Positions 3,269 to 17,647 of a stretch of DNA of 20,385 nucleotides are shown here, in pieces. Each line of letters starts with the position of its first letter. The stretch's first letter is position 1. A program made the translations under genes and the position numbers. This stretch comes from a virus, in IMG/VR virus record IMGVR_UViG_3300027704_000216, positions 1 to 20,385 of that record. One strand, written 5' to 3'. The notes under the pieces are model-generated. The model made no database searches, had not been told where the DNA came from, and worked only from the letters and a program-made list of their open reading frames with translations.

Positions 3269-3985
3269 ATGGAACAAGAAGTAAATGAAGAAGTAAACGT
3301 AGAGCAGAGTACAAACGAAGCTGTACAAACAGATACTACACCAAAAGCATTTGAGATTCCGACCGAGGCTCAAGAACTAGTTGGTGAAGGAAAAAAGTAC
3401 CAGAGCCCAGAAGATGCTCTTAAATCAGTACCTCATGCACAAAAGCATATTGAGACTTTAGAGTCTGAACTTGCCGCTGTAAAAGAAGAATTGACTAAGA
3501 GACAAACTACTCAGGAACTTTTAGATGAAATTAAGTCTGGAATTCAACCACCTGTTACGACCTATCAGGAACCTGAATTTAATCAAGATATGTTACAAAA
3601 CGTTGTTAATAAAACTATAGAGTCAAAAGAAAAAGAAAGAGTTTATCAGCAAAATGCTCAGTTAGTATCTGAAAAGTTTACTACTAAGTATGGAAATAAA
3701 GCGGAGACTGTTTATAATTCTATGGCTTTAGAAAATGGTTTAACTATACAACAACTACACAATCTTGCTGCAACAAACCCTAAGTTAGTTTTAAAACTTA
3801 GTGAATTAGCTCAGCCTGGAGAAATTTTACACTCTAAGCCTACTAGTTCAATAAATACAGAAACGCTTAGAAATCAAGTCGGAGACTCTTCTCAGTTGAG
3901 TGCTCGTGTAAAACAGGGTGCTACAACAAAAGATTTAGCTGCTGCTTGGAAAATTGCAGGTGAGAAAATTAAACAACAAACATAA
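3269..3985 (+). CDS. Capsid assembly scaffold-like protein
   Basis: At 238 aa and immediately upstream of the capsid gene, it has the expected composition and layout of a podovirus scaffold that templates procapsid assembly and is then removed. Residues 1-55 are acidic and low in complexity. Residues 56-88 form a strongly predicted coiled coil (HIETLESELAAVKEEL). The middle is Gln-rich, and the C-terminal 25 residues are basic and helical (DLAAAWKIAGEKIKQ), like the capsid-binding tail known in P22 and phi29-type scaffolds. No protease motif is visible, so there is no sign that it digests itself. The function is inferred from position and architecture, not from a catalytic motif. A good GGAG ribosome site lies about 9 bases before the ATG. 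Confidence 0.8.
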   Translation: MEQEVNEEVNVEQSTNEAVQTDTTPKAFEIPTEAQELVGEGKKYQSPEDALKSVPHAQKHIETLESELAAVKEELTKRQTTQELLDEIKSGIQPPVTTYQEPEFNQDMLQNVVNKTIESKEKERVYQQNAQLVSEKFTTKYGNKAETVYNSMALENGLTIQQLHNLAATNPKLVLKLSELAQPGEILHSKPTSSINTETLRNQVGDSSQLSARVKQGATTKDLAAAWKIAGEKIKQQT

Positions 3986-4005: not shown

Positions 4006-4989
4006 ATGGCTAGTACTGGAAACACAACAGCGTTCATTGAATCGCAACAGTATTCGCAGTTTATTCTTGATAATTTACATGACTATTTACTACCTGAAGG
4101 TATGTGGAGAGATGTAACAGACTTTGGTTCTGGTACAACTTTAAACGTTAAAACAGTTGGTACAGTCTCATTACAAGATGCTGCTGAGGATACACCTCTA
4201 AACTTCCATGACATTGACACTGGAACTCTAACTCTATCTATTACTGACTACGTTGGTGATGCATGGAAAGTTACAGATGACCTACGTGAAGATGGTTCTC
4301 AAATTGATACTTTAATGTCAATGCGAGCTATGGAATCTACTCGTGCTCTTGGTGAAAACCATGAGACTAAATTTTTAAATGTAGCAAATGCTGCACAAAC
4401 CGCAGGAGCTGTTAACTTAGTTAATGGTCGCCCACATCGTTGGGTTGCTGGTGGTTCTGGCGGTACTTCTAGGAAAATTACTTTATCTGACTTTGTAGCA
4501 ATGAAGTTATCTTTTGATAAAGCTAATGTTCCTGCAGGTGGTAGGATTGCAATTGTTGATCCTATTGTTGAGGCTACTTTAAACGGATTAATCTCTTTAC
4601 AAACAGTCGTTGATAATACTCCGCAATTCCAAGGTATTCTAAATGAAGGTTTTGCAAGAGATCATAAATTTGTTAGAAATATTATGGGTTTTGATGTTTA
4701 TACATCTAACTTCCTACACTCTGTTACTGCAGTAGAAGACATTAATGCTGCTGCTTATGGCTTAGCTGATGATGTTTCAGTAGTAGGTAATAAAGCTAAC
4801 GTGTTTATGTGTGTTGCTGATGACTCTTGTAAACCACTGATGCATGCATGGAGACGTGCTCCGCAGACAGAAGGTTGGAGAGATAATGAGGAAAGAGCTG
4901 ATAAATATCAAGTTACTACTCGTTATGGCTTTGGCGCACAACGTCTTGACACTTTAGGTGTGATCATCACTGATCATGCTGCATACTAG
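4006..4989 (+). CDS. Major capsid protein
   Basis: This is the 327-aa shell subunit, presumably of the HK97 fold, in the size range of podovirus coats. The N-terminal arm (MASTGNTTAFIESQQYS) is followed by DVTDFGSGTTLNVKTVG and SITDYVGDAWKVTDDLRE, a style common to marine phage capsid proteins. The P-domain-like part and a late segment (TTRYGFGAQRLDTLGVI) close the protein. Position after the scaffold and before decoration genes supports the call. Its codon choice differs from its neighbours: it uses CGT, CGC and CGA for Arg as well as AGA, and more C-ending codons, typical of a very highly expressed gene. An AAGGAAA ribosome site precedes the ATG. The N-terminal arm recurs in the 47-aa gene at 6905-7048. 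Confidence 0.93.
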   Translation: MASTGNTTAFIESQQYSQFILDNLHDYLLPEGMWRDVTDFGSGTTLNVKTVGTVSLQDAAEDTPLNFHDIDTGTLTLSITDYVGDAWKVTDDLREDGSQIDTLMSMRAMESTRALGENHETKFLNVANAAQTAGAVNLVNGRPHRWVAGGSGGTSRKITLSDFVAMKLSFDKANVPAGGRIAIVDPIVEATLNGLISLQTVVDNTPQFQGILNEGFARDHKFVRNIMGFDVYTSNFLHSVTAVEDINAAAYGLADDVSVVGNKANVFMCVADDSCKPLMHAWRRAPQTEGWRDNEERADKYQVTTRYGFGAQRLDTLGVIITDHAAY

Positions 4990-5494: not shown

Positions 5495-5516
5495 GGTGAG
5501 CCCTTCGGGGCTTACC
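5495..5516 (+). terminator. UUCG-tetraloop hairpin; terminator-like or RNA-stabilising
   Basis: GGTGAGCCC (5495-5503) pairs with GGGCTTACC (5508-5516) around a TTCG loop (5504-5507). This gives nine paired positions with one G-U wobble, closed by the especially stable C(UUCG)G tetraloop. The hairpin stands out as GC-rich in a very AT-rich genome and fills the largest gap in the window (5482-5538). The bases after it (CCTAATTTAAC) are not a U-run, so a full intrinsic terminator is doubtful. It may cause partial termination or protect the 3' end of capsid and decoration mRNA. The structure is clear; the function is inferred. Confidence 0.55.
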
Positions 5517-6116: not shown

Positions 6117-6896
6117 ATGGCTAAAATGACATTACTTGAAATGACACAAGATATTTTATCTGATATGGATTCAGACGAAGTAAATTCAATTAATACTACA
6201 CCAGAGTCTTTACAAGTAGCTCAAATAATTAAAACTTCTTACTATAATATTGTTGATGGTACAGACTATCCCTTTTTATATGAATTATTTAGAATGACTG
6301 CTAGTGGTACTACTGCTAGACCTACTCATATGCTTTTACCAGAAGATATTATTGACTTAAAGTATATTAAATATAATAGTAAATTAAAATCTACAGATAA
6401 AGATTTATTTCAAGTAATAGAGTATAAAACTCCAGAAGAGTTTATGCATCTTACTGATGCTAGAGATAGTACTGCTACAGCTACAGTTTTAAAAGTAACA
6501 GACCCTACAGGTATAACTATTAATATTCTTAAAAATAAACAACCTCAGTGCTTTACCTCTTTTGATGATGAGTCTTTAGTATTTGATTCTTATTTATCTT
6601 CTTTAGATAGTACACTACAGTCTTCAAAAACACAGTGTCATGGTAAACGTTCAGTAGCCTTTACGCTATCGGATGCATTTATTCCAGATATTCCTGTGCA
6701 ACTATTTAGTTATTTATTAGCTGAAGCTAAGTCAACAGCTTTTGTTGTACTTAAACAAATGGCTAATCCTAAAGCAGAACAGACAGCTACTTCCCAAAGA
6801 CGTAGAATGAGTCAAGATGCTTGGAGACTAAAGAATGGAATCTCTTATCCAAACTATGGTAGACATGGTTCTACAAATAAAAAACCTAATTACTAG
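6117..6896 (+). CDS. Tail tubular protein A-like head-tail adaptor
   Basis: At 259 aa it is probably the adaptor ring that joins the portal to the tail nozzle, equivalent to T7 gp11. The N-terminal helix-rich start (MTLLEMTQDILSDMDSDEVN, then SLQVAQIIKTSYYNIVDG) and the central beta region with PTHMLLPEDIIDLKYIKYN are typical of podovirus tail tubular A proteins. The basic C-terminus (SQRRRMSQDAWRLKNG) fits binding near the DNA channel. The order capsid, decoration, this protein, nozzle matches T7-like genomes except for two tiny genes inserted before the nozzle gene. The ribosome site is AGGATAA just before the ATG. The stop is TAG. Confidence 0.75.
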   Translation: MAKMTLLEMTQDILSDMDSDEVNSINTTPESLQVAQIIKTSYYNIVDGTDYPFLYELFRMTASGTTARPTHMLLPEDIIDLKYIKYNSKLKSTDKDLFQVIEYKTPEEFMHLTDARDSTATATVLKVTDPTGITINILKNKQPQCFTSFDDESLVFDSYLSSLDSTLQSSKTQCHGKRSVAFTLSDAFIPDIPVQLFSYLLAEAKSTAFVVLKQMANPKAEQTATSQRRRMSQDAWRLKNGISYPNYGRHGSTNKKPNY

Positions 6897-6904
6897 GAAA
6901 TAAT

Positions 6905-7048
6905 ATGGCAAACACTGGTAATACATCTGCATTTATAAATGCTCAACAATATGGGAAAAAAAAGAAAATGAAATATAAATCACCAGTAGTAAAAAAGAAA
7001 AAGAAAGTAGTTAAAAAAACTAAAGGTAAATCAAAAAACTATGGATAA
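6905..7048 (+). CDS. 47-aa capsid-N-arm mimic with polylysine tail
   Basis: This small gene runs ATG to TAA, with an AGGAAA ribosome site 6 bases upstream and a start 8 bases after the previous stop. Residues 1-17 (MANTGNTSAFINAQQYG) match the capsid start (MASTGNTTAFIESQQYS) at 12 of 17 positions. The other 30 residues hold 16 Lys, and the whole protein has no Asp or Glu (net charge about +16). Over these 51 bases the two genes share 34. Seven of the 12 identical residues use a different synonymous codon, so the protein sequence appears to have been kept over time. It could bind the site normally used by the capsid arm, or ride into the shell and touch DNA with its tail. No function is established. 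The last 8 bases overlap the next start (ATGGATAA). Confidence 0.8.
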   Translation: MANTGNTSAFINAQQYGKKKKMKYKSPVVKKKKKVVKKTKGKSKNYG

Positions 7049-7304
7049 AAATATAATAAGAAGTTATAAAACTAAAGGAACTAAAGAACTTGAAGCTCGT
7101 ATACATCCAGGAACAGCACATTATAAATTACAATGGTCTGGTGGTGGAGAGTTACCTCAAGAACTATCAGGTATGTATACCTCTTTAAATTTAGTAGATA
7201 CAGCAGTATTATCTTATTTAGCAAATTTAAAAGAAGGCAAAATAGAAGAAACAGCTAAAGAAAAGTATTACGCAAAACAAGCTAAAAAATCTCAGGAAAT
7301 TTAA
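7041..7304 (+). CDS. Unrecognised 87-aa protein
   Basis: I do not recognise this family. The body looks like a small alpha/beta fold: KELEARIHPGTAHYKLQW, then a Gly turn (SGGGELPQELSGMYTSLN), then a helix (DTAVLSYLANLKEG) and a charged Lys/Glu-rich end. It has no membrane segment and no cysteine. Its ATG lies inside the last codons of the 47-aa gene, and the nearest AAGG is about 14 bases away, so translation probably depends on ribosomes finishing the upstream gene. That coupling hints that the two small proteins are made in step. The nozzle gene begins at the base after its TAA. Its position between adaptor and nozzle suggests a tail or head-completion role, but this is inference only. Confidence 0.75.
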   Translation: MDKNIIRSYKTKGTKELEARIHPGTAHYKLQWSGGGELPQELSGMYTSLNLVDTAVLSYLANLKEGKIEETAKEKYYAKQAKKSQEI

Positions 7305-9566
7305 ATGGCAACAAGCCTTGAAAAACCATATAATACCTTTGTTAAAGGGTTAATTACAGAGGCAAGTCCTCTTACTTTTCCTGATAATGCTTCTATTGAT
7401 GAACAAAACTTTGTTCTTAATAGAGATGGTTCACGTTCAAGGAGACTAGGGATTGACTATGAAAATCTCTATGCTTTAAAATCTACAGGACAATCAGCTA
7501 GTCAGTTAGCTTCTGGAAGACAAGATTTATTTAAATGGGATTCACCTGCTGGTGATGCTAGTGTAGCTATTGGTGTAGTAAGGTCAAATGAAAAACTTTG
7601 GTTTATTAATTTATTATCTGCTAATCCAAGTAATAATTTTTTAAACAGTGGTAATTTTATAAGTCTTAGTGGAGTTTCTAATGGTAAACTAGAAACAGCT
7701 ATTATTAATAATAAAATGATTATTGTTGGTTCTCAATTAGAACAGCCTATTTTATTAGCCTATAATAAAGCTACTGGAGCAGTTACTCAATCAACAATTG
7801 ATATCTATGTAAGGGATATTTGGGGAGTTGATGATGGTTTAACTATCTCAGAAAGACCTTCTAGTATTTCTGCTGCTCATAGATATAACCTTAGAAACCA
7901 AGGGTGGAATACAACTATTGTTTCTGCAGCTGAGTCAGGAACACCAGATGCAATTGATTTTACACATACAGAACTTGGATTATATCCTAGTAATGGTGAC
8001 TCTTGGACTTTTGGTAAAATAAGTAATGCTGCTGATGAGGATTATGAAAAATATGATCCAGAAACATTACTTAAAAACTCTACTTCACAATACTTTGTAA
8101 GTAGAGGCAGTAATGTAATTGATGCTTTTATTAGAGGATCTCAAAGAAGTACTTTAACAGGTCTCTCTTTACCTAATGATTTAGAGCAGGGTAATCTTAC
8201 GACTGTTGCTTCTTATGCTCAACGAGTATTTTATTCAGGAGTAGCTTCTGATGTTACTGGTGGAGATGCTATATCTCCTAATTATTCGGGCTATATCTTT
8301 TTTACACAAGTTGTAACAACAGATGATCAACTAGGTAAAGCTCATCAAGCTTCCGACCCTACTGCACCAGGAGTTAATGCTTTAGTTGCAAGTGATGGTG
8401 GAACTATACAAATACCTGAGATTACTCAGATTGTTAAATTAGCTTCTTCTCAACAGTCACTATTAGTTTTTGCAGAAAATGGCGTGTGGGAGATCTATGG
8501 AGATACTGGAGGGTTTAATGCTAACTCTTTCCAATTAAATAAGATATCTACAAATGGTGTATCAAATGGTGAGTCTATAGTTAATGTTAATGGAAACTAT
8601 ATTTATTGGTCAAAAGCAGGTATATATCAATTAGCTCCTGATTCTACATCAGGACGATTTAAAGCTGAATCTATTTCATTAGGCTCTATACAAAAGTTTT
8701 TTATTGATATTCCTGATTTAGGTAAAAATAATTGTAAAGGTTTTTATGATGAAAAAGAAAATAGATTAAGGTGGTTATATAATGATACAGATGCTTATAG
8801 TACTGCAAATTATATTAATGATTATAATAAAGAATTAGTTTTAGACTTATCCTTAAAAGCATGGTACCCTCAAAAAATTGAAAAGTTGTCTTCTAACTCT
8901 CCTTGGGTAACTGCTTATATAGATATTCCAGGATATGCAGTATCTTCAACAGCAACAGGTGTAGAAGTAACTGATGGTAATGCTGTTATTAATACTGCGG
9001 GTACTTCAGTTATTGTTACAGAAGATATACAAGTAAATAGAACATCTGGGTTTAGGTTTTTAACTTTTAAAGGTACACAGTTTACAGTTTCATTATATAA
9101 AAATACTACCTTTAAAGACTGGGTTACAGCTGGTGGTGCTGGAGGAGGAGTTAACTACTCAAGTTATTTAGTTACGGGGTATGAATTATTTAAAGATTCT
9201 ACAAAACGTAAACAAGTACCTTACATATTCTTTTACTTTAATAAAACAGAAGATGGGTTCTCAGCTAGTGGGTCTAGTTTTGTTTTAGATAACCAGTCAT
9301 CATGTTTAGTACAGTCACAATGGAACTGGGCTAATTCTGCAAATAGTGGAAAATGGGGAACTGAGTTTCAAGCTTATAGACTCCTTCGTTTATATACACC
9401 TTCAGGAGCAACAGATACATTTGATAATGGAGCAGCTGTTATAACAACTAAAAATAAATTAAGAGGTTCTGGAAAGACATTGAGTTTAAAAATACAATCA
9501 GAAGTAGGTAAAGATATGCAACTTTTAGGTTGGACAGTTCAAGCTACAGCACTAACAAAAGCATAA
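7305..9566 (+). CDS. Tail tubular protein B-like nozzle protein
   Basis: At 753 aa it is probably the hexameric tail nozzle, equivalent to T7 gp12 (794 aa). The start (YNTFVKGLITEASPLTFPDN, then ASIDEQNFVLNRDGSRSRRL) is a hallmark style of podovirus tail tubular B proteins, in which the first strands describe the minimal genome-channel wall. The rest is almost entirely beta-strand and turn, with segments such as VFAENGVWEIYGDTGGF and INVNGNY-like propeller blades, and a Gly-rich loop near residue 610 (TAGGAGGGVNYSS). No signal peptide is present, as expected for a virion part. The start codon directly abuts the previous stop; an AGGAA ribosome site at 7294-7298 lies inside the preceding gene. 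The family call rests on the N-terminal pattern, length and gene order. Confidence 0.8.
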   Translation: MATSLEKPYNTFVKGLITEASPLTFPDNASIDEQNFVLNRDGSRSRRLGIDYENLYALKSTGQSASQLASGRQDLFKWDSPAGDASVAIGVVRSNEKLWFINLLSANPSNNFLNSGNFISLSGVSNGKLETAIINNKMIIVGSQLEQPILLAYNKATGAVTQSTIDIYVRDIWGVDDGLTISERPSSISAAHRYNLRNQGWNTTIVSAAESGTPDAIDFTHTELGLYPSNGDSWTFGKISNAADEDYEKYDPETLLKNSTSQYFVSRGSNVIDAFIRGSQRSTLTGLSLPNDLEQGNLTTVASYAQRVFYSGVASDVTGGDAISPNYSGYIFFTQVVTTDDQLGKAHQASDPTAPGVNALVASDGGTIQIPEITQIVKLASSQQSLLVFAENGVWEIYGDTGGFNANSFQLNKISTNGVSNGESIVNVNGNYIYWSKAGIYQLAPDSTSGRFKAESISLGSIQKFFIDIPDLGKNNCKGFYDEKENRLRWLYNDTDAYSTANYINDYNKELVLDLSLKAWYPQKIEKLSSNSPWVTAYIDIPGYAVSSTATGVEVTDGNAVINTAGTSVIVTEDIQVNRTSGFRFLTFKGTQFTVSLYKNTTFKDWVTAGGAGGGVNYSSYLVTGYELFKDSTKRKQVPYIFFYFNKTEDGFSASGSSFVLDNQSSCLVQSQWNWANSANSGKWGTEFQAYRLLRLYTPSGATDTFDNGAAVITTKNKLRGSGKTLSLKIQSEVGKDMQLLGWTVQATALTKA

Positions 9567-10600: not shown

Positions 10601-13600
10601 ATGGCTCTTATATTTCAAGAAAATTTAGAATTACCAGAAGAAACTGCTGCTAAGTTTGTTTTTAGTGATAGTGACGCATCTAATAAAGCTTTTTATACAG
10701 CAGCAGCTACAGATGCTGATCCTGAAGTAACCTACACAGAAACTAAAGCACAACTATTAAACGAAGGCACCTCTCCGCTTGAAGATTTAGCAATTAATAA
10801 ATATAAAGAAGATCAAAATGTACAAAACAAAAGCATTGTAAATAGTATTATTTCTGATCCTGATATAGATAAACAAGAAAAAAAGAATGCTCTTGAATTA
10901 TATGCTACTGGTGGATATATATCTTCAGATTTAAAAACAAAATATCAATCAAGTATTAAAACCCTTGTACCAATAGATATTCCAGAAAATAATGAAATAC
11001 AAAAAGCAGCTATAGAAGTTTTAGATAAAGTAAATACAGAAAGTAATGCTGCTAGTAAAGTTAATAAAATAAAGACATTAAAAGATGACATAGAAAATAT
11101 TAGTGTAAACCAACTAATTCCTATTGAAATAAAACAAAAAGAAATAAAAGAAAAAAATATAGAAAAGATTAAACTTTCTATACCAGAAGTTCCTGATGAA
11201 GAGTCAGTTACTCTTATTAATAAACTTTCGGATGCCTTTACTTTTGGTAATGTAAATAAAACAAAAGATGCATTATCAAAGGCAATGGAAACATCTTCTA
11301 AAGATGTAGCAATATTAGGATTAAATGTTGAAGACTTTGCTATAAAAGCAGGAGTGGCTTTACTAACTTTTGGTACTTATACAACAGCTACAGCAGCAGA
11401 TTACTATGATGCACTTTTAGATAGAGCTTCTCCTGGAGAAATATCTTTTAAGTCTATTAAAGAAAAAGTATATAAAGACCTAAAAGGATTTAATACTAAC
11501 CTTGATAAAAATTCAAAAAATCTTTTAGACTTAATAGCTAATAATTCTATTACTTTAGAAGTTATAGATAGAAATACAGTAAAAGAAAATAAAGTTAGTA
11601 ATGAATATATACAACGTGTTTATAATACTGAAAAAGGTCCTAATGGTATTACATGGCTTAAAAATGCTGACTTAGCAGAGAAAAGACTTGATCCAAACAG
11701 CAGTGAATATAATCCAATATTTACAGACAATTGGAATAATCTTACAGAAATAGTTACTGATATAGGTAAAGATGTTTTTAGTAATGAACTACTATCTTTA
11801 CAACAAAAACATGGTATTTATTCAAAACATATTTTATTAGCCTTAAAGCCAGTTTATTCTGCAGAAACAACGTTTGGTACTAACAATGAGATTAGTTCTG
11901 GTGGAGCTGTAGGTGAACTACAAGTTATTTATCCTACTTTTCAAAGCTTAGTTAAAAATAATTATTTAGGAACTAAGTTTGTAGAGGCTATTGAAGATCC
12001 CTTAGTTACATCTGTTGAGGAATTAAAAAGTTTAACTAAAGAAGAGTTTACAGCTTTATTATCTAACAATAATATTGCTGCTATTCTTGCAGGAGAAGCA
12101 ACACTTATACAAAAGTTAACTAATAATCCTGATGGGTTCTTAAAAAATGTACAAGCTACAGGTGATCTTACAGAAGAAGGTATAAAAGCAGTAGCAAAAA
12201 CTCCAGATTTAGATGAGAATCAAGGGTTATCTTTTGATGAATTATTAATAAAAAATCAAAGTAAGTATGATACAGCAGCCTATAATTTACAAGGAATTAC
12301 TCCTGCAACTCCACTTTTTACATTTGCGCAGCTACTTGCGCGAGAGTTAGATATAGATGGTATTGACTTTATAAATGCAAGGTTTAAAAAAGGTGAACCA
12401 GATAGAAGGTCTACAGTAGAAAGACAGTCTGATGCATTAAATATTACTACCGAAGAAAGATTGAAGTCTCCCTCTGGACAATTAATAACAAAATTTGGGG
12501 AGCTTATTCATTTAGCAATGCAAAAAGTAGAAGAAAAAACTCCTGCAGGTCCAGGAACTTCTAGAGCTTTAGTAGAAGCTGCTCTTATATTTGCACCTAC
12601 TAGAGCAATTAAAGGAATTATTCCTAAAAGAAAAGGTAAGGATCTTGTTACTAAAGAAAGTGAGTTTGCTAGAAGAGATGCTGGACAAGATGCAACTAAT
12701 CCAAATTGGAGAGACAAGTATAAAGAGTCCTTTGATGAAGGTTCTCCTATATATGCTTCAGATAAATCTAGTGTAAATCCAGACTCTCCTATACAAACTA
12801 CTGCTAATGCTAATCTTGACGTAGCCTCAGTAATATCTAAAGAAATTTTAGATGGACCTGATGGTTCAACTACAGGTCTAGCTCTTGGTGTAAGTAAAGC
12901 AGAGCTCTTTAATTCATGGGTAGACTTTGGTTATGGATCTAGAAATACATCTTCACTACCTCACCCTAATGTTATTTTAACTAATCCTACACCAGTAGAT
13001 CTTTCTGCTCAAAGTATTTATAATGAGGCAATAACAAAGAGTAGGTCTTTAAGCCAAGCAGTTGATTATACTCTTGTAAGACAACTTAAACCACTACTTA
13101 ATAATATAGCAACTTATAATAATTATAGTCCAAGTCATTCTAATGTTAGTATAAATGCTACTAATTTAAATTCAGATTTAGTTTTTAGAGCAGATCAAGT
13201 TGGAAATCCTATTACTAATAAAGTAGATGCTATTGATAAATTAAATAAATTAATTAATGATCCTAATTTAAATAATATAAATGAAATAAGTAAATTACCT
13301 GAAGGTACTAGAAAGTTTCCTGTTCCTATAAGTAAAAAAAATAAAAAGGGTATGATACAAAAACCTTTTGTTGAATCAAAAGTATATATACGAGACTTAA
13401 ATACTGGAAAAGTATATTATAATTCTCAAACTTTTAATAAAGACAGAGGTATAATGACTGCTATTGAAAGTATAGAGGCTGGTCCTGGAGCAACAGCAAC
13501 TATAAAATTGCCTGCTTATAATATAATAAAAGGTAAAACAAAAGAGTTAGTTCCAGAAAAAACTTTATCTATACCAATTAAAATTGGTTCTACTAAAAAA

Positions 13601-16600
13601 GGTAGAACTGTAGCTCTTCCAAATAAAAGTGTTTTAATACAGGATGTTAATGCAACTTTAAGACGTAAATCTAATGGCGAACCTCTTGAAATTATACTTA
13701 ATGTACCTGCAATTAAAAAAGGGTTTAAGGATAAACCTTGGTTATCTCCTAAAGTAGAAGGAGTTACGGCTTTACCAGATATTTTTAAAACAGAAAATGA
13801 ATGGGTAGACTTTGTTTTAAAACATGAAATAGCTCATGCTGGAAATCCAGCTAATCCTAAAGTAGAAAATAAGGCTTCTTATGAAAATAGAATAAATAGA
13901 ATAGCTCTTAAAGAGTTTAAAAATCAATTTTCTAAAGATACTACTAATCAATTTGAAATAGTGTTAGAAACTAAAACAGATTATAATGTAATTATACAAG
14001 GATTATCTCCTATTGAAATAGGTAATCTTAAATTTAATTGGTTTCCAGGTAAATCTATAACATATAATCCTAATACAAGAATAAAGCATTGGGACGTTTT
14101 TTCTTGGATACATAATAACATGAGAGAAGCTAAGTGGGTTACACGAGAACTTACTGATTTAGCTTTAGAAAATGATTATTTAAGTTCAAGAATGCAAAAT
14201 GAAATTATTAATGTTTTTGCTTCTTATGGAAATAAAAATGCTCTTGACTATCTTCTTAGAGATATGAAGAAAAATGGGTTATCTATAAATGATTATACTG
14301 ATGTACAGTTGTTTTCATTGTTTAGTCCTACTATAAATTATTCTAAGCTTTTAGAAAGGACTAGAATTACTTCTGTTAAACAATTACCAGCTCTTAGAGA
14401 AGCTGCAAATGCTTTTGAACAGTTAACTAGATTAACAAGAAAAGTAATGAATCAATATGAAATTAATAGACTAACAGAAGAAGGTTATAATTTAGGAGCT
14501 TATGAAAATATATCTAATAGGTTAATAGCTCCTGTATCTGATCGTGTAGTATCAGAAAAAAATAATCCTGTTACACTAGAAATAGATAAAATACTAGAAG
14601 ATGGAAGTTTAGTAACTGAACTACGTACTATAGACATTCCTTGGATCACAGCAAATGTAAAAAAAGTAATGAACTTATCAGATACTAAAGTAATTAATTT
14701 TGAGTATAGTAAAGAATTATCTTTAGCTAATAATAAAGGACAAGTTGTAGATACACAAGGTCGAATTTTAGTTAAACTAAGTAAACCTGTAAGTGGTCTA
14801 GCGTCTAATTTTGCAAGTGCTTATAGTGTAAGTACTAAAAAACCAATGGAACAACAAAACTTTTATAAAGAAGATTCATTAGGTTCTATAAAAGAAACTT
14901 ATCCAGACCTTCCTGATTTTAATGACTATACTTATGGAGTAATTGACCCTACTACAAGTAAACTTAGTGTATTAGCTGGAGACCTTCTTCCTTTAAGTAA
15001 AGGGTATCTTCCACAAGTTGATGCTAGTCTACATTTTGTAGATATAGTTCCATTAAAGGCTGTAGAAAATGGTACTCTTCTTTATGACTATAGAACACAG
15101 ACTAGTCCTCAAGGTATAATAGTAGGAGGTAAATATAACCCTAGCTCTAAAAGAGCTGAGCCTGTTACAGAAAATCAAGCTAGAACACTTGCAGTATTAC
15201 AAAAACGAAGACAGTCTATTGCAAGGGCTTCAACAAAAAAAGAAGCACTAAAAATAGTAAATAAACTTAAAAACAGTAGCTTATATAAAGACTATGTTAT
15301 ATATTCTAGACAAGCTTCAGAAAGCTCTCCAAAAGAAATGTTTAATTATGAAGAAGCTGGACAAGTTCTTTATGATTCTGAGTTAGCAAATGCTAAAGAT
15401 ATGAATCAAAACATGGTAGGAAGAACTGATATTAAAGATGAATTTAAAGCTATGGTTGAAAATGCGAATAATGCAATGAAACGTAATTTAAATTCTCAAG
15501 CTTTTGATTTGTTTAAAAAACAATTTGTAGAAGAGTTTAAAGAATTTTTACCTGCTGGAGGACGTTATCCACGAAGTGTAAGTGAAATAGGTAAAAGTAT
15601 AGATAAAACAACACTTACTAAAGAGCTACTTAATAAACTAAATACAGCAAAAAATCAATATGAAACGTATTCTCGTAGACTAGGAGAAGTTGAGGTAGGT
15701 CTTTCTGATATAGCCAAACAAAAAATATTACATTATTTATCTGATATAATTGAATTTATTCCAGGACAAAGGGCAAGAAAGACTTCTATATCTTTAAGAC
15801 GTGAAGGAAATGAGTCTGCCTCTTCAGCTATGCTTTTACAAAGAAGTATTTCAACTTTAGTAATTGCTGGCTCTCCTATTAAACAATTACTTTTACAACT
15901 TTCTCCTGCTATTGAAGCAACTGTAGCATCAGGTTTAAAAGCTGATCCTTTAATAGTTCCTAAGATAATGTCAGATGCATTAATTTTAAGAGCTTCACCA
16001 TTACTTACACATCCAGATTTAAAAGCCGGAGCTGAAGGTTGGAACAAAAAAATAACAGCAGCATTAAAGTTTTCTGGATGGACTGACATAGAAATCCCTT
16101 ATTTAATTCGAGAAATTAATAGAACTCTAAGTCAAGTAGATAAAAATATAATAATTTCTGAAATAATGACTCAATCTGAAGTATTACTAAATCCAAAGTT
16201 TTATGACAAAGCAACAGGAGCATTTAAAGGCGTAATTGGTGCTCCAGGTAATGTTGGTAGAGTAATTGGCTTTAAGCAATCTGAGTCTATGACTTCAGTT
16301 GTAAGTATACTTTATTCAATACTTACATTTAAAGAGAGAAACCCTGGAAAAAATTGGTGGGAAGATAAGTATAGAGCAGAAGTAGCAACAAATGCTTATA
16401 ACTTTAAAGGTAGTATGACTAAGTTTGGAGCTATGCCTTGGAGTCATAATGCTCTTGGACAAATAATGACTTTCTTACAGTATAATCATAAGGTTACAGT
16501 AGCAGCTTTACATGAAGGAGGTTTTGGATTATCAAACGTACAAAGAGGTAAATTGTTTGTAGGTAAATCAATAATGTGGGGAACAGAAAACTTACCTATT

Positions 16601-17647
16601 TGGGGTTTATATGTAAAAGCTATAGGAACTATATTAGCTGTAAACTTACTTGAAAATGATGAAGAAAAATTTGCTGAAGAAGGAATTAAAAATCCTAAAG
16701 CAGAGGCTCGTAAACAAGGTCAATTAAATTATCAAGATTCATTACCTCAATTTTTATCTAATTTAGAGGGTGGAGTAGCAGATTGGATGTGGAAATCAGC
16801 ATTTAAAATAACTGGTAAAGAAGCACCATCAGGTTTTGTTTTGTCAGAAGGAATGGCAACTAGAGATATAGGGCTATTTCAAATAGCAAAAGAACTTTAT
16901 AAACTGTTTGATAAAAATGATAAAACTAATCCAAGTATTGCTTCCCTTTCAGTTCCAGGTAAGATAGCAGCTAAAATTAATGAGGCTATGTTTATTTGGA
17001 CTGTACCAGATTCTTCTATAGGGGCTAAAGGTACTGCAGATAAAGTTAAAGATACTTTTGTAGCTGTTCTTAGTGCTTATAAATCTGTTAGTGATATTCA
17101 AAAAGCTTTAGTAATTCATGCAAATGAAGGCTGGGTAACTAATAAAAATGGTGCTAAGCTTTATAATCTTGAAGAATCAGATATTTGGCAAGTAGCTCTT
17201 GGTTGGGGAGACCCAAAAGGTAATGCTTATTATAAATCTTTATTTAAAAATCTAGATAGAAAGACACTGATGGAAGAAAATGCTAAACTTTTACATCAAA
17301 ATTATACAACATGGGCAGATAAATATAGAAATGGTGATATTGGTCTACCTGAAGCTATAAGTAATTTAGAAAATGATATGCCTTGGTTACTATTAGGTTT
17401 GTCTGAAGCTCAAAAGTGGACTAAAGTAGAACATGAAAGAGTAGTAGACAAAGTTCTTTCTCTTGAACGTAGAAAATTTAAAGGCTCAGGAGCAGAAGAC
17501 TTACTAGATCTTATGATAGAAACTGGCATTTCAGAGTCTATGGAAAATGATAGAGATATTAATAACTGGCTTGAGAAATATGCTCCAGAAGGAAAGAAAG
17601 AGTATGATAAAATATTTATAGACACCCCAATAGACAATAAGGAATAA
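10601..17647 (+). CDS. Giant ejection/internal virion protein with transglycosylase and zinc-peptidase signatures
   Basis: At 2348 aa this protein takes up over a third of the window. Residues 1-240 are charged and helical, and a hydrophobic patch lies near 250-268. A lytic transglycosylase-like stretch follows: AETTFG with the candidate catalytic Glu at 422, then SSGGAVGELQVIYPTF (G435 to F447), matching the ES..GA.GL.Q..P.T layout of SLT enzymes. Near 1063-1100 is a zincin motif, VLKHEIAHAG (H1075, E1076, H1079), with a possible third ligand at E1089 or E1095. Hydrophobic segments occur near 1743-1780 and 2001-2016, and a conserved-looking block KFGAMPWSHNALGQIMTFLQ lies at 1941-1960. T7 gp16 (1318 aa) also pairs an SLT domain with ejection. 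This protein probably enters the cell and opens the wall. The peptidase part is unusual and its activity is unproven. Confidence 0.85.
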   Translation: MALIFQENLELPEETAAKFVFSDSDASNKAFYTAAATDADPEVTYTETKAQLLNEGTSPLEDLAINKYKEDQNVQNKSIVNSIISDPDIDKQEKKNALELYATGGYISSDLKTKYQSSIKTLVPIDIPENNEIQKAAIEVLDKVNTESNAASKVNKIKTLKDDIENISVNQLIPIEIKQKEIKEKNIEKIKLSIPEVPDEESVTLINKLSDAFTFGNVNKTKDALSKAMETSSKDVAILGLNVEDFAIKAGVALLTFGTYTTATAADYYDALLDRASPGEISFKSIKEKVYKDLKGFNTNLDKNSKNLLDLIANNSITLEVIDRNTVKENKVSNEYIQRVYNTEKGPNGITWLKNADLAEKRLDPNSSEYNPIFTDNWNNLTEIVTDIGKDVFSNELLSLQQKHGIYSKHILLALKPVYSAETTFGTNNEISSGGAVGELQVIYPTFQSLVKNNYLGTKFVEAIEDPLVTSVEELKSLTKEEFTALLSNNNIAAILAGEATLIQKLTNNPDGFLKNVQATGDLTEEGIKAVAKTPDLDENQGLSFDELLIKNQSKYDTAAYNLQGITPATPLFTFAQLLARELDIDGIDFINARFKKGEPDRRSTVERQSDALNITTEERLKSPSGQLITKFGELIHLAMQKVEEKTPAGPGTSRALVEAALIFAPTRAIKGIIPKRKGKDLVTKESEFARRDAGQDATNPNWRDKYKESFDEGSPIYASDKSSVNPDSPIQTTANANLDVASVISKEILDGPDGSTTGLALGVSKAELFNSWVDFGYGSRNTSSLPHPNVILTNPTPVDLSAQSIYNEAITKSRSLSQAVDYTLVRQLKPLLNNIATYNNYSPSHSNVSINATNLNSDLVFRADQVGNPITNKVDAIDKLNKLINDPNLNNINEISKLPEGTRKFPVPISKKNKKGMIQKPFVESKVYIRDLNTGKVYYNSQTFNKDRGIMTAIESIEAGPGATATIKLPAYNIIKGKTKELVPEKTLSIPIKIGSTKKGRTVALPNKSVLIQDVNATLRRKSNGEPLEIILNVPAIKKGFKDKPWLSPKVEGVTALPDIFKTENEWVDFVLKHEIAHAGNPANPKVENKASYENRINRIALKEFKNQFSKDTTNQFEIVLETKTDYNVIIQGLSPIEIGNLKFNWFPGKSITYNPNTRIKHWDVFSWIHNNMREAKWVTRELTDLALENDYLSSRMQNEIINVFASYGNKNALDYLLRDMKKNGLSINDYTDVQLFSLFSPTINYSKLLERTRITSVKQLPALREAANAFEQLTRLTRKVMNQYEINRLTEEGYNLGAYENISNRLIAPVSDRVVSEKNNPVTLEIDKILEDGSLVTELRTIDIPWITANVKKVMNLSDTKVINFEYSKELSLANNKGQVVDTQGRILVKLSKPVSGLASNFASAYSVSTKKPMEQQNFYKEDSLGSIKETYPDLPDFNDYTYGVIDPTTSKLSVLAGDLLPLSKGYLPQVDASLHFVDIVPLKAVENGTLLYDYRTQTSPQGIIVGGKYNPSSKRAEPVTENQARTLAVLQKRRQSIARASTKKEALKIVNKLKNSSLYKDYVIYSRQASESSPKEMFNYEEAGQVLYDSELANAKDMNQNMVGRTDIKDEFKAMVENANNAMKRNLNSQAFDLFKKQFVEEFKEFLPAGGRYPRSVSEIGKSIDKTTLTKELLNKLNTAKNQYETYSRRLGEVEVGLSDIAKQKILHYLSDIIEFIPGQRARKTSISLRREGNESASSAMLLQRSISTLVIAGSPIKQLLLQLSPAIEATVASGLKADPLIVPKIMSDALILRASPLLTHPDLKAGAEGWNKKITAALKFSGWTDIEIPYLIREINRTLSQVDKNIIISEIMTQSEVLLNPKFYDKATGAFKGVIGAPGNVGRVIGFKQSESMTSVVSILYSILTFKERNPGKNWWEDKYRAEVATNAYNFKGSMTKFGAMPWSHNALGQIMTFLQYNHKVTVAALHEGGFGLSNVQRGKLFVGKSIMWGTENLPIWGLYVKAIGTILAVNLLENDEEKFAEEGIKNPKAEARKQGQLNYQDSLPQFLSNLEGGVADWMWKSAFKITGKEAPSGFVLSEGMATRDIGLFQIAKELYKLFDKNDKTNPSIASLSVPGKIAAKINEAMFIWTVPDSSIGAKGTADKVKDTFVAVLSAYKSVSDIQKALVIHANEGWVTNKNGAKLYNLEESDIWQVALGWGDPKGNAYYKSLFKNLDRKTLMEENAKLLHQNYTTWADKYRNGDIGLPEAISNLENDMPWLLLGLSEAQKWTKVEHERVVDKVLSLERRKFKGSGAEDLLDLMIETGISESMENDRDINNWLEKYAPEGKKEYDKIFIDTPIDNKE

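Follow-up and report, generated by a model that had tools for sequence, protein, structure and literature searches.

A small protein of MEP401-like Zobellviridae phages imitates the N-arm of its own capsid protein and carries a lysine-rich tail

The capsid targeting sequence of phage T4 is thought to recruit internal proteins into the prohead (PMC3012670, PMC9026906), and lysines of these internal proteins contact the packaged DNA (PMC3012670). SaPI1 CpmB, a small parasite-borne protein, bears a short motif of a resident assembly protein, the scaffold end (RIIK), forms a helical dimer, and reaches the same shell site (PMC5644958). Encapsulin cargo-loading peptides, which are usually C-terminal and carry enzyme cargo, dock inside an HK97-fold shell, where the N-terminal helix of the shell forms part of their pocket (PMC8346489). 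In P22, the N-arm helix of the coat protein binds scaffold in the procapsid and on maturation becomes a loop reaching into the neighbouring subunit; this change of the N-arm is described as conserved in T4, T5, T7, SPP1, P23-45, and lambda (PMC9965877).

Here, we found that a 47-aa protein of a Zobellviridae podovirus imitates the N-arm of its own capsid protein. The T4 internal proteins, CpmB, and the encapsulin peptides are its nearest analogues, and none of them copies its own capsid arm. Like T4 IPI, IPII, IPIII, and Alt, the protein has a short conserved N-terminal tag and belongs to a set of small, basic, fast-diverging proteins (83 distinct versions here), and it may also share their contact with DNA; however, the T4 tag is a cleaved propeptide with a sequence of its own, while the present tag imitates the capsid arm and co-varies with it, and the proteins have no sequence relation. 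The resemblance to CpmB lies in the copying of a short motif of a resident assembly protein, although the small protein imitates the capsid arm rather than the scaffold end and is encoded by the phage itself, and neither the RIIK hook nor the helical dimer domain of the CpmB type was found in it. By analogy, the encapsulin peptides offer a comparable mode of docking, but they are no copy of the shell protein. The Zobellviridae capsid N-arm, N(T/S)xxFIxxxQY, is the sequence source or the model of the small arm; nevertheless, the small protein shares only these 16–17 arm residues with the capsid protein and continues with a 30-residue lysine-rich tail instead of an HK97 fold.

The gene lies in a 20,385-base IMG/VR virus record, IMGVR_UViG_3300027704_000216, which was analysed over its whole length (hereafter, the window) and bears the structural genes of a Zobellviridae podovirus. 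Among named phages, it is closest to the OM43 phages MEP401 and MEP402, with 81% identity between their capsid proteins and that of the window (PMC10580990). The genes run in the order terminase, portal, a 74-aa gene, scaffold, capsid protein, two small genes, adaptor, the 47-aa gene, an 87-aa gene, and closure protein (Table 1). Two other features of the window can be mentioned. Downstream of the capsid gene, the 160-aa and 189-aa genes have between them a strong GC hairpin (5495–5516; −18.3 kcal/mol, z −3.2) whose loop is TTCG; it may be a terminator or processing site by which capsid expression is set apart. At 10601–17647, in the position of an internal virion protein, there is a 2348-aa protein without a PHROG match; its MEP401 counterpart has 1786 aa.

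Table 1. Coordinates of the small gene and of related features in the window
Feature	Position	Strand	Basis or remark
47-aa gene: capsid-arm mimic and lysine-rich tail	6905..7048	+	conserved in relatives, dN/dS <1
Arm of the small protein, MANTGNTSAFINAQQYG	6905..6955	+	12/17 residues as in the capsid protein
Lysine-rich tail of the small protein	6956..7045	+	net charge +16, acidic residues 0
AGGAA, likely ribosome-binding site	6895..6899	+	sequence; overlaps the stop codon of the adaptor gene
Major capsid protein, HK97 fold	4006..4989	+	PF25209, phrog_267
Capsid N-arm stretch being mimicked	4006..4056	+	model helix 7–27 begins here
Scaffold protein, conserved basic C-terminus	3269..3985	+	phrog_7931; MEP401 orthologue annotated as scaffold
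Head completion adaptor, directly upstream of the 47-aa gene	6117..6896	+	phrog_7592; MEP401 annotation
87-aa conserved gene	7041..7304	+	phrog_9082; 8-base overlap with the end of the small gene
Head closure / tail appendage protein, downstream anchor of the locus	7305..9566	+	phrog_8094; MEP401 annotation

The product of the small gene is MANTGNTSAFINAQQYGKKKKMKYKSPVVKKKKKVVKKTKGKSKNYG. A first-pass annotation, made from the letters alone, had noticed its likeness to the capsid start, and we reproduced the underlying counts exactly: 12 of 17 residues and 34 of 51 bases are identical between the two arms, the synonymous codons differ at seven of the 12 identical residues, the tail contains 16 Lys, the 47-aa protein has no acidic residue, and a ribosome site stands at proper spacing, five bases ahead of the ATG. 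The span of the likeness was slightly corrected, as the arm proper ends at Tyr16 and residue 17 is Gly in the small protein and Ser in the capsid protein. Over residues 2–17, the ungapped BLOSUM62 score against the capsid is 60, while the best of one million random peptides drawn from the phage's own composition scored 36, so the match is far beyond chance. When all possible starts in the window were compared with the capsid arm, the 47-aa gene scored 66 and the next ORF 26; the corresponding values in MEP401 were 42 and 28. The small gene is the sole start resembling the capsid arm in the window, MEP401, and MEP402, apart from the capsid gene itself. Identical copies of the gene in two other contigs (L006 and L205) exclude an assembly error. 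Taken together, the capsid-arm mimicry of the 47-aa protein is well supported.

Relatives were gathered with the capsid protein and three adaptor proteins as queries. A tblastn search of named phages with the 47-aa protein gave no match, even though MEP401 gp37 is its orthologue, because low-complexity masking hides the tail, and orthologues were therefore located by position and motif. Close relatives, a subfamily of phages from marine and freshwater habitats, keep both the gene and its arm: among the relatives of this MEP401-like Zobellviridae phage, it is present in 171 of 173 readable loci, directly after the adaptor in 169 of them and one gene further on in the other two (L101 and L102). 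The only loci without it, ctOsX528 and Erwinia phage Pecta, are outside the clade, and it is also lacking in the 127 loci that could be read in three further Zobellviridae clades (those of CW02, RIO-1, and CRP-4 relatives). The annotated orthologues, MEP401 gp37 and MEP402 gp39, are each recorded as “hypothetical protein”. The possibility of an orphan or spurious ORF was ruled out by this conservation and by the dN/dS values given below.

Some of these loci differ in the genes around the small gene. In L101 and L102, the adaptor gene and the small gene are separated by an insertion, a different gene of 110 aa. Between the small gene and the 87-aa gene, many relatives have one or two extra basic, fast-diverging genes of 65–220 aa (e.g., L017:8523-8966, L003:8056-8604, and L033:4881-5557), which are absent from the window; some of them share a recurring (F/Y)xPT(D/N)TxxxP motif.

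Across the family, the arm of the small protein follows the motif (T/S)NTxxF(I/V)xxxxY. With the arm Phe taken as 0, the small and capsid proteins have in common T-6, N-4, T-3, A/S-1, F0, I/V+1, Q+5, and Y+6; the search pattern contained the anchor F......Y, outside of which only two loci fell, and hence the invariance of Phe and Tyr is partly by construction. The two arms differ at position +2, where Glu is found in 81 of 81 capsid arms as compared to seven of 81 small arms, most small proteins having His, Asn, or Lys instead. The arm Tyr of the small proteins is usually followed by Gly and then by the tail. The tails are 15–55 residues long (the shortest is only GKKKKKVKRKSKNYG), consist of 39% Lys and 1.5% Asp+Glu, and have a net charge of +8 to +20, so that all 83 are strongly basic. 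They are low in complexity, and what they have in common between clades is the composition, their sequences being unrelated.

On the capsid side, all of 90 capsid proteins, with identities as low as 29%, have Tyr16-Ser17. The arm motif N(T/S)xxFIExxQYS is an old feature of the Zobellviridae capsid protein, as seen in the capsid N-termini of ICP2 (L094), CW02 (L090), and CRP-4 (L095), and the Cobavirinae arm, SSNTxxxRLIRSEVYS, is near the EVY and DVY variants of some small proteins. Since the capsid arm is older and the small gene is absent from the three other clades, the mimic probably arose from, or converged on, the capsid arm inside the MEP401-like subfamily.

The motif is not widespread in unrelated phages. 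A DNA pattern coding for NTxxFIxxxxYGKK matched 72 IMG/VR stretches, all in loci with Zobellviridae structural genes, and 12 stretches in 257 Gb of bacterial and archaeal genomes, none of which is at a plausible start of a small basic ORF. The idea of a generic protein start was thereby ruled out, the KK-containing motif being specific to these phages. The window protein had no match among PHROGs, Pfam, or NCBIfam profiles, its relatives had only marginal, composition-driven PHROG matches, and the open-licence papers, which as a restricted sample are weak evidence, contained nothing on lysine-rich or capsid-mimicking small phage proteins. The small protein fits no described family.

The protein sequence is held by selection, as had been supposed from the synonymous differences. 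Over 34 independent pairs, dN/dS was 0.25 (0.16–0.35) for the arm and 0.45 (0.36–0.55) for the tail, both below 1, and 0.18 and 0.15 for the arm and body of the capsid protein. The likeness is also no recent copying accident: identical residues use the same codon at a frequency of 0.54 within a genome and 0.56 between genomes, and 0.55 is expected from codon usage. Recent duplication or gene conversion was ruled out on this basis.

As anticipated, the two N-termini co-vary, and they do so beyond shared ancestry. At positions −8, −7, and −5, which vary in the capsid, the small and capsid arms agree more within than between genomes, and a clade-level permutation of the matching gave P <=0.0006 at every cut. 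In a simulation of independent evolution on two trees, the null was 0.00 +/- 0.03, and the observed 0.19 was reached in 0/1000 runs, with few independent arm changes and a simple substitution model limiting these tests. The small arm tracks the capsid protein 2 kb off and not the adjoining adaptor gene; the partial Mantel correlation with the capsid arm, given the adaptor and capsid body, was r = 0.34 (P = 0.0005), as compared to r = 0.07 (P = 0.14) with the adjacent adaptor, given the capsid protein. Correlations of the small arm with the scaffold and with the capsid body single out neither as the partner.

For example, capsid arms with LTSNT are paired with small arms with LTSNT, STGNT with NTGNT or STGNT, HTTANT/HNTANT with FTTANT, and TTxNT or NTTNT with TTSNT or STSNT. 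The match is loose in some lineages, in which the small arms METWNT or MLTFDT accompany the capsid arms LTSNT or STGNT. One locus (L007) is an exception, as its capsid protein is identical to that of the window while its adaptor is another version and its small arm another type, MLTFDTKAFIKGDVYG; this discordance is a sign of recombination between the capsid and adaptor genes.

No solved capsid structure is close to the window capsid in sequence, and an AlphaFold model was built on a diverse alignment. The model is confident and HK97-type (pLDDT 80.5, pTM 0.77), with an N-arm helix at residues 7–27. It superposes on procapsid chains of P22 (8i1v) from residue 6 and of T7 (3j7v) from residue 7, whereas its fit to most mature capsids starts only near residue 22, in agreement with the arm refolding that has been published for maturation (PMC9965877). 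From the model helix and these superpositions, the first 16 residues of the small protein are predicted to copy the tip and the first half of the capsid N-arm helix. Scaffold C-termini of the family (e.g., L033, L061, and L120) have a conserved basic segment, S(A/R)(K/R)VxxGA(S/T)TKD(L/M)xxAWxxAGEKVKQ, which is likely the coat-binding end, and the scaffold protein is a possible partner of the small protein's arm.

Arm mimicry, selection on the arm, co-evolution with the capsid arm, and an obligate basic tail are directly supported. The balance of probability leans slightly towards a two-part minor head protein that docks by its capsid-arm mimic and directs its basic tail towards the DNA. As the arm imitates the capsid N-arm, it would take the binding site of that arm, inside the procapsid or capsid; candidate sites are the coat-binding end of the scaffold and the groove of the neighbouring subunit that receives the refolded arm on maturation. 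The unstructured lysine-rich tail would hang inward and contact the packaged DNA by the wall or the portal vertex. That the protein sits in the head, what exactly it docks on, and that its tail touches DNA are what we infer. It had been proposed that the tail neutralises or tethers DNA. With the coat number of P22, 415 (PMC9965877), as many copies of a +16 tail would cover only about 8% of the phosphates of a 43-kb genome, so bulk neutralisation appears weak and a tethering or local role is the likelier part of that proposal.

The alternatives start from the same arm and differ in what it is for. The small protein could be an assembly regulator that binds the coat-binding end of the scaffold or nascent capsid protein in competition with the capsid arm and so tunes scaffold ratio, size, or release, the lysine tail merely adding affinity for acidic scaffold or capsid. 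The scaffold end indeed touches the coat N-arm helix in P22 and 80alpha (PMC9965877, PMC5644958), the scaffold and capsid proteins are net acidic, CpmB sets an example of competition in assembly by a small protein with a copied short motif, and correction for the capsid arm leaves a weak correlation of the small arm with scaffold divergence (r = 0.17, P = 0.001). We nevertheless regard this role as unlikely, though to be reckoned with. A competitor needs no strongly basic tail, yet all 83 tails are of this kind, and Glu+2, universal in the capsid arms, is seldom retained. Moreover, by residue offset in the procapsid superposition, the P22 acidic cluster D14/E15/E18 would fall at about model residues 18–22, and the mimic would end before this region equivalent to the scaffold-binding acids of P22.

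The variability of the tail could instead suggest an injected internal protein, with the arm as a head-loading tag like that of T4 and the basic tail as an effector that accompanies the DNA into the host and works there, e.g., against nucleases or on host nucleic acid. A conserved tag with fast-diverging cargo is the pattern of T4 internal proteins (PMC3012670, PMC9026906), the dN/dS of the tail is nearly twice that of the arm, and the tails are unrelated in sequence between clades. However, tails so short and so low in complexity are unlikely to be folded effectors, and a prohead protease that could release them was not found in MEP401 and MEP402 (no S78 or Clp-type match with working controls; the S77 search had no positive control), which makes this reading quite improbable. 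It is very improbable that the protein is a plug of the portal vertex, where five capsid subunits are missing, their neighbours thus lack a partner arm, and the small protein would supply it. The arm sites on these neighbours follow from the P22 maturation structure, and nearly all loci have the gene placed between the head completion adaptor and the closure gene; even so, phage gene order is weak evidence of place, the proposal is pure inference, and plugging by itself does not explain the basic tail, so that it amounts to a special case of the docking arm with a DNA-facing tail.

We put forward tentatively, at rather less than an even chance, that the small protein represents an undescribed kind of virion protein, a genome-to-shell tether that combines an evolving replica of the capsid arm with a polycationic tail and is kept in step with the capsid by selection, and whose extra “free arms” would plug arm sites and anchor DNA. 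Their small size, basic character, and lack of folds have left the short internal proteins of phage heads poorly understood, while the docking half of the present protein is self-explanatory, being a capsid arm that evolves together with the capsid arm. It offers a direct handle on the entry of minor proteins into HK97-fold shells when neither a protease nor a dedicated signal is involved, and on the binding partners of the N-arm. A capsid-arm mimic also provides a natural and simple tag by which cargo could be loaded into these shells. These results indicate that genes of fewer than 50 codons, usually left as “hypothetical”, can bear strong evolutionary evidence of function.
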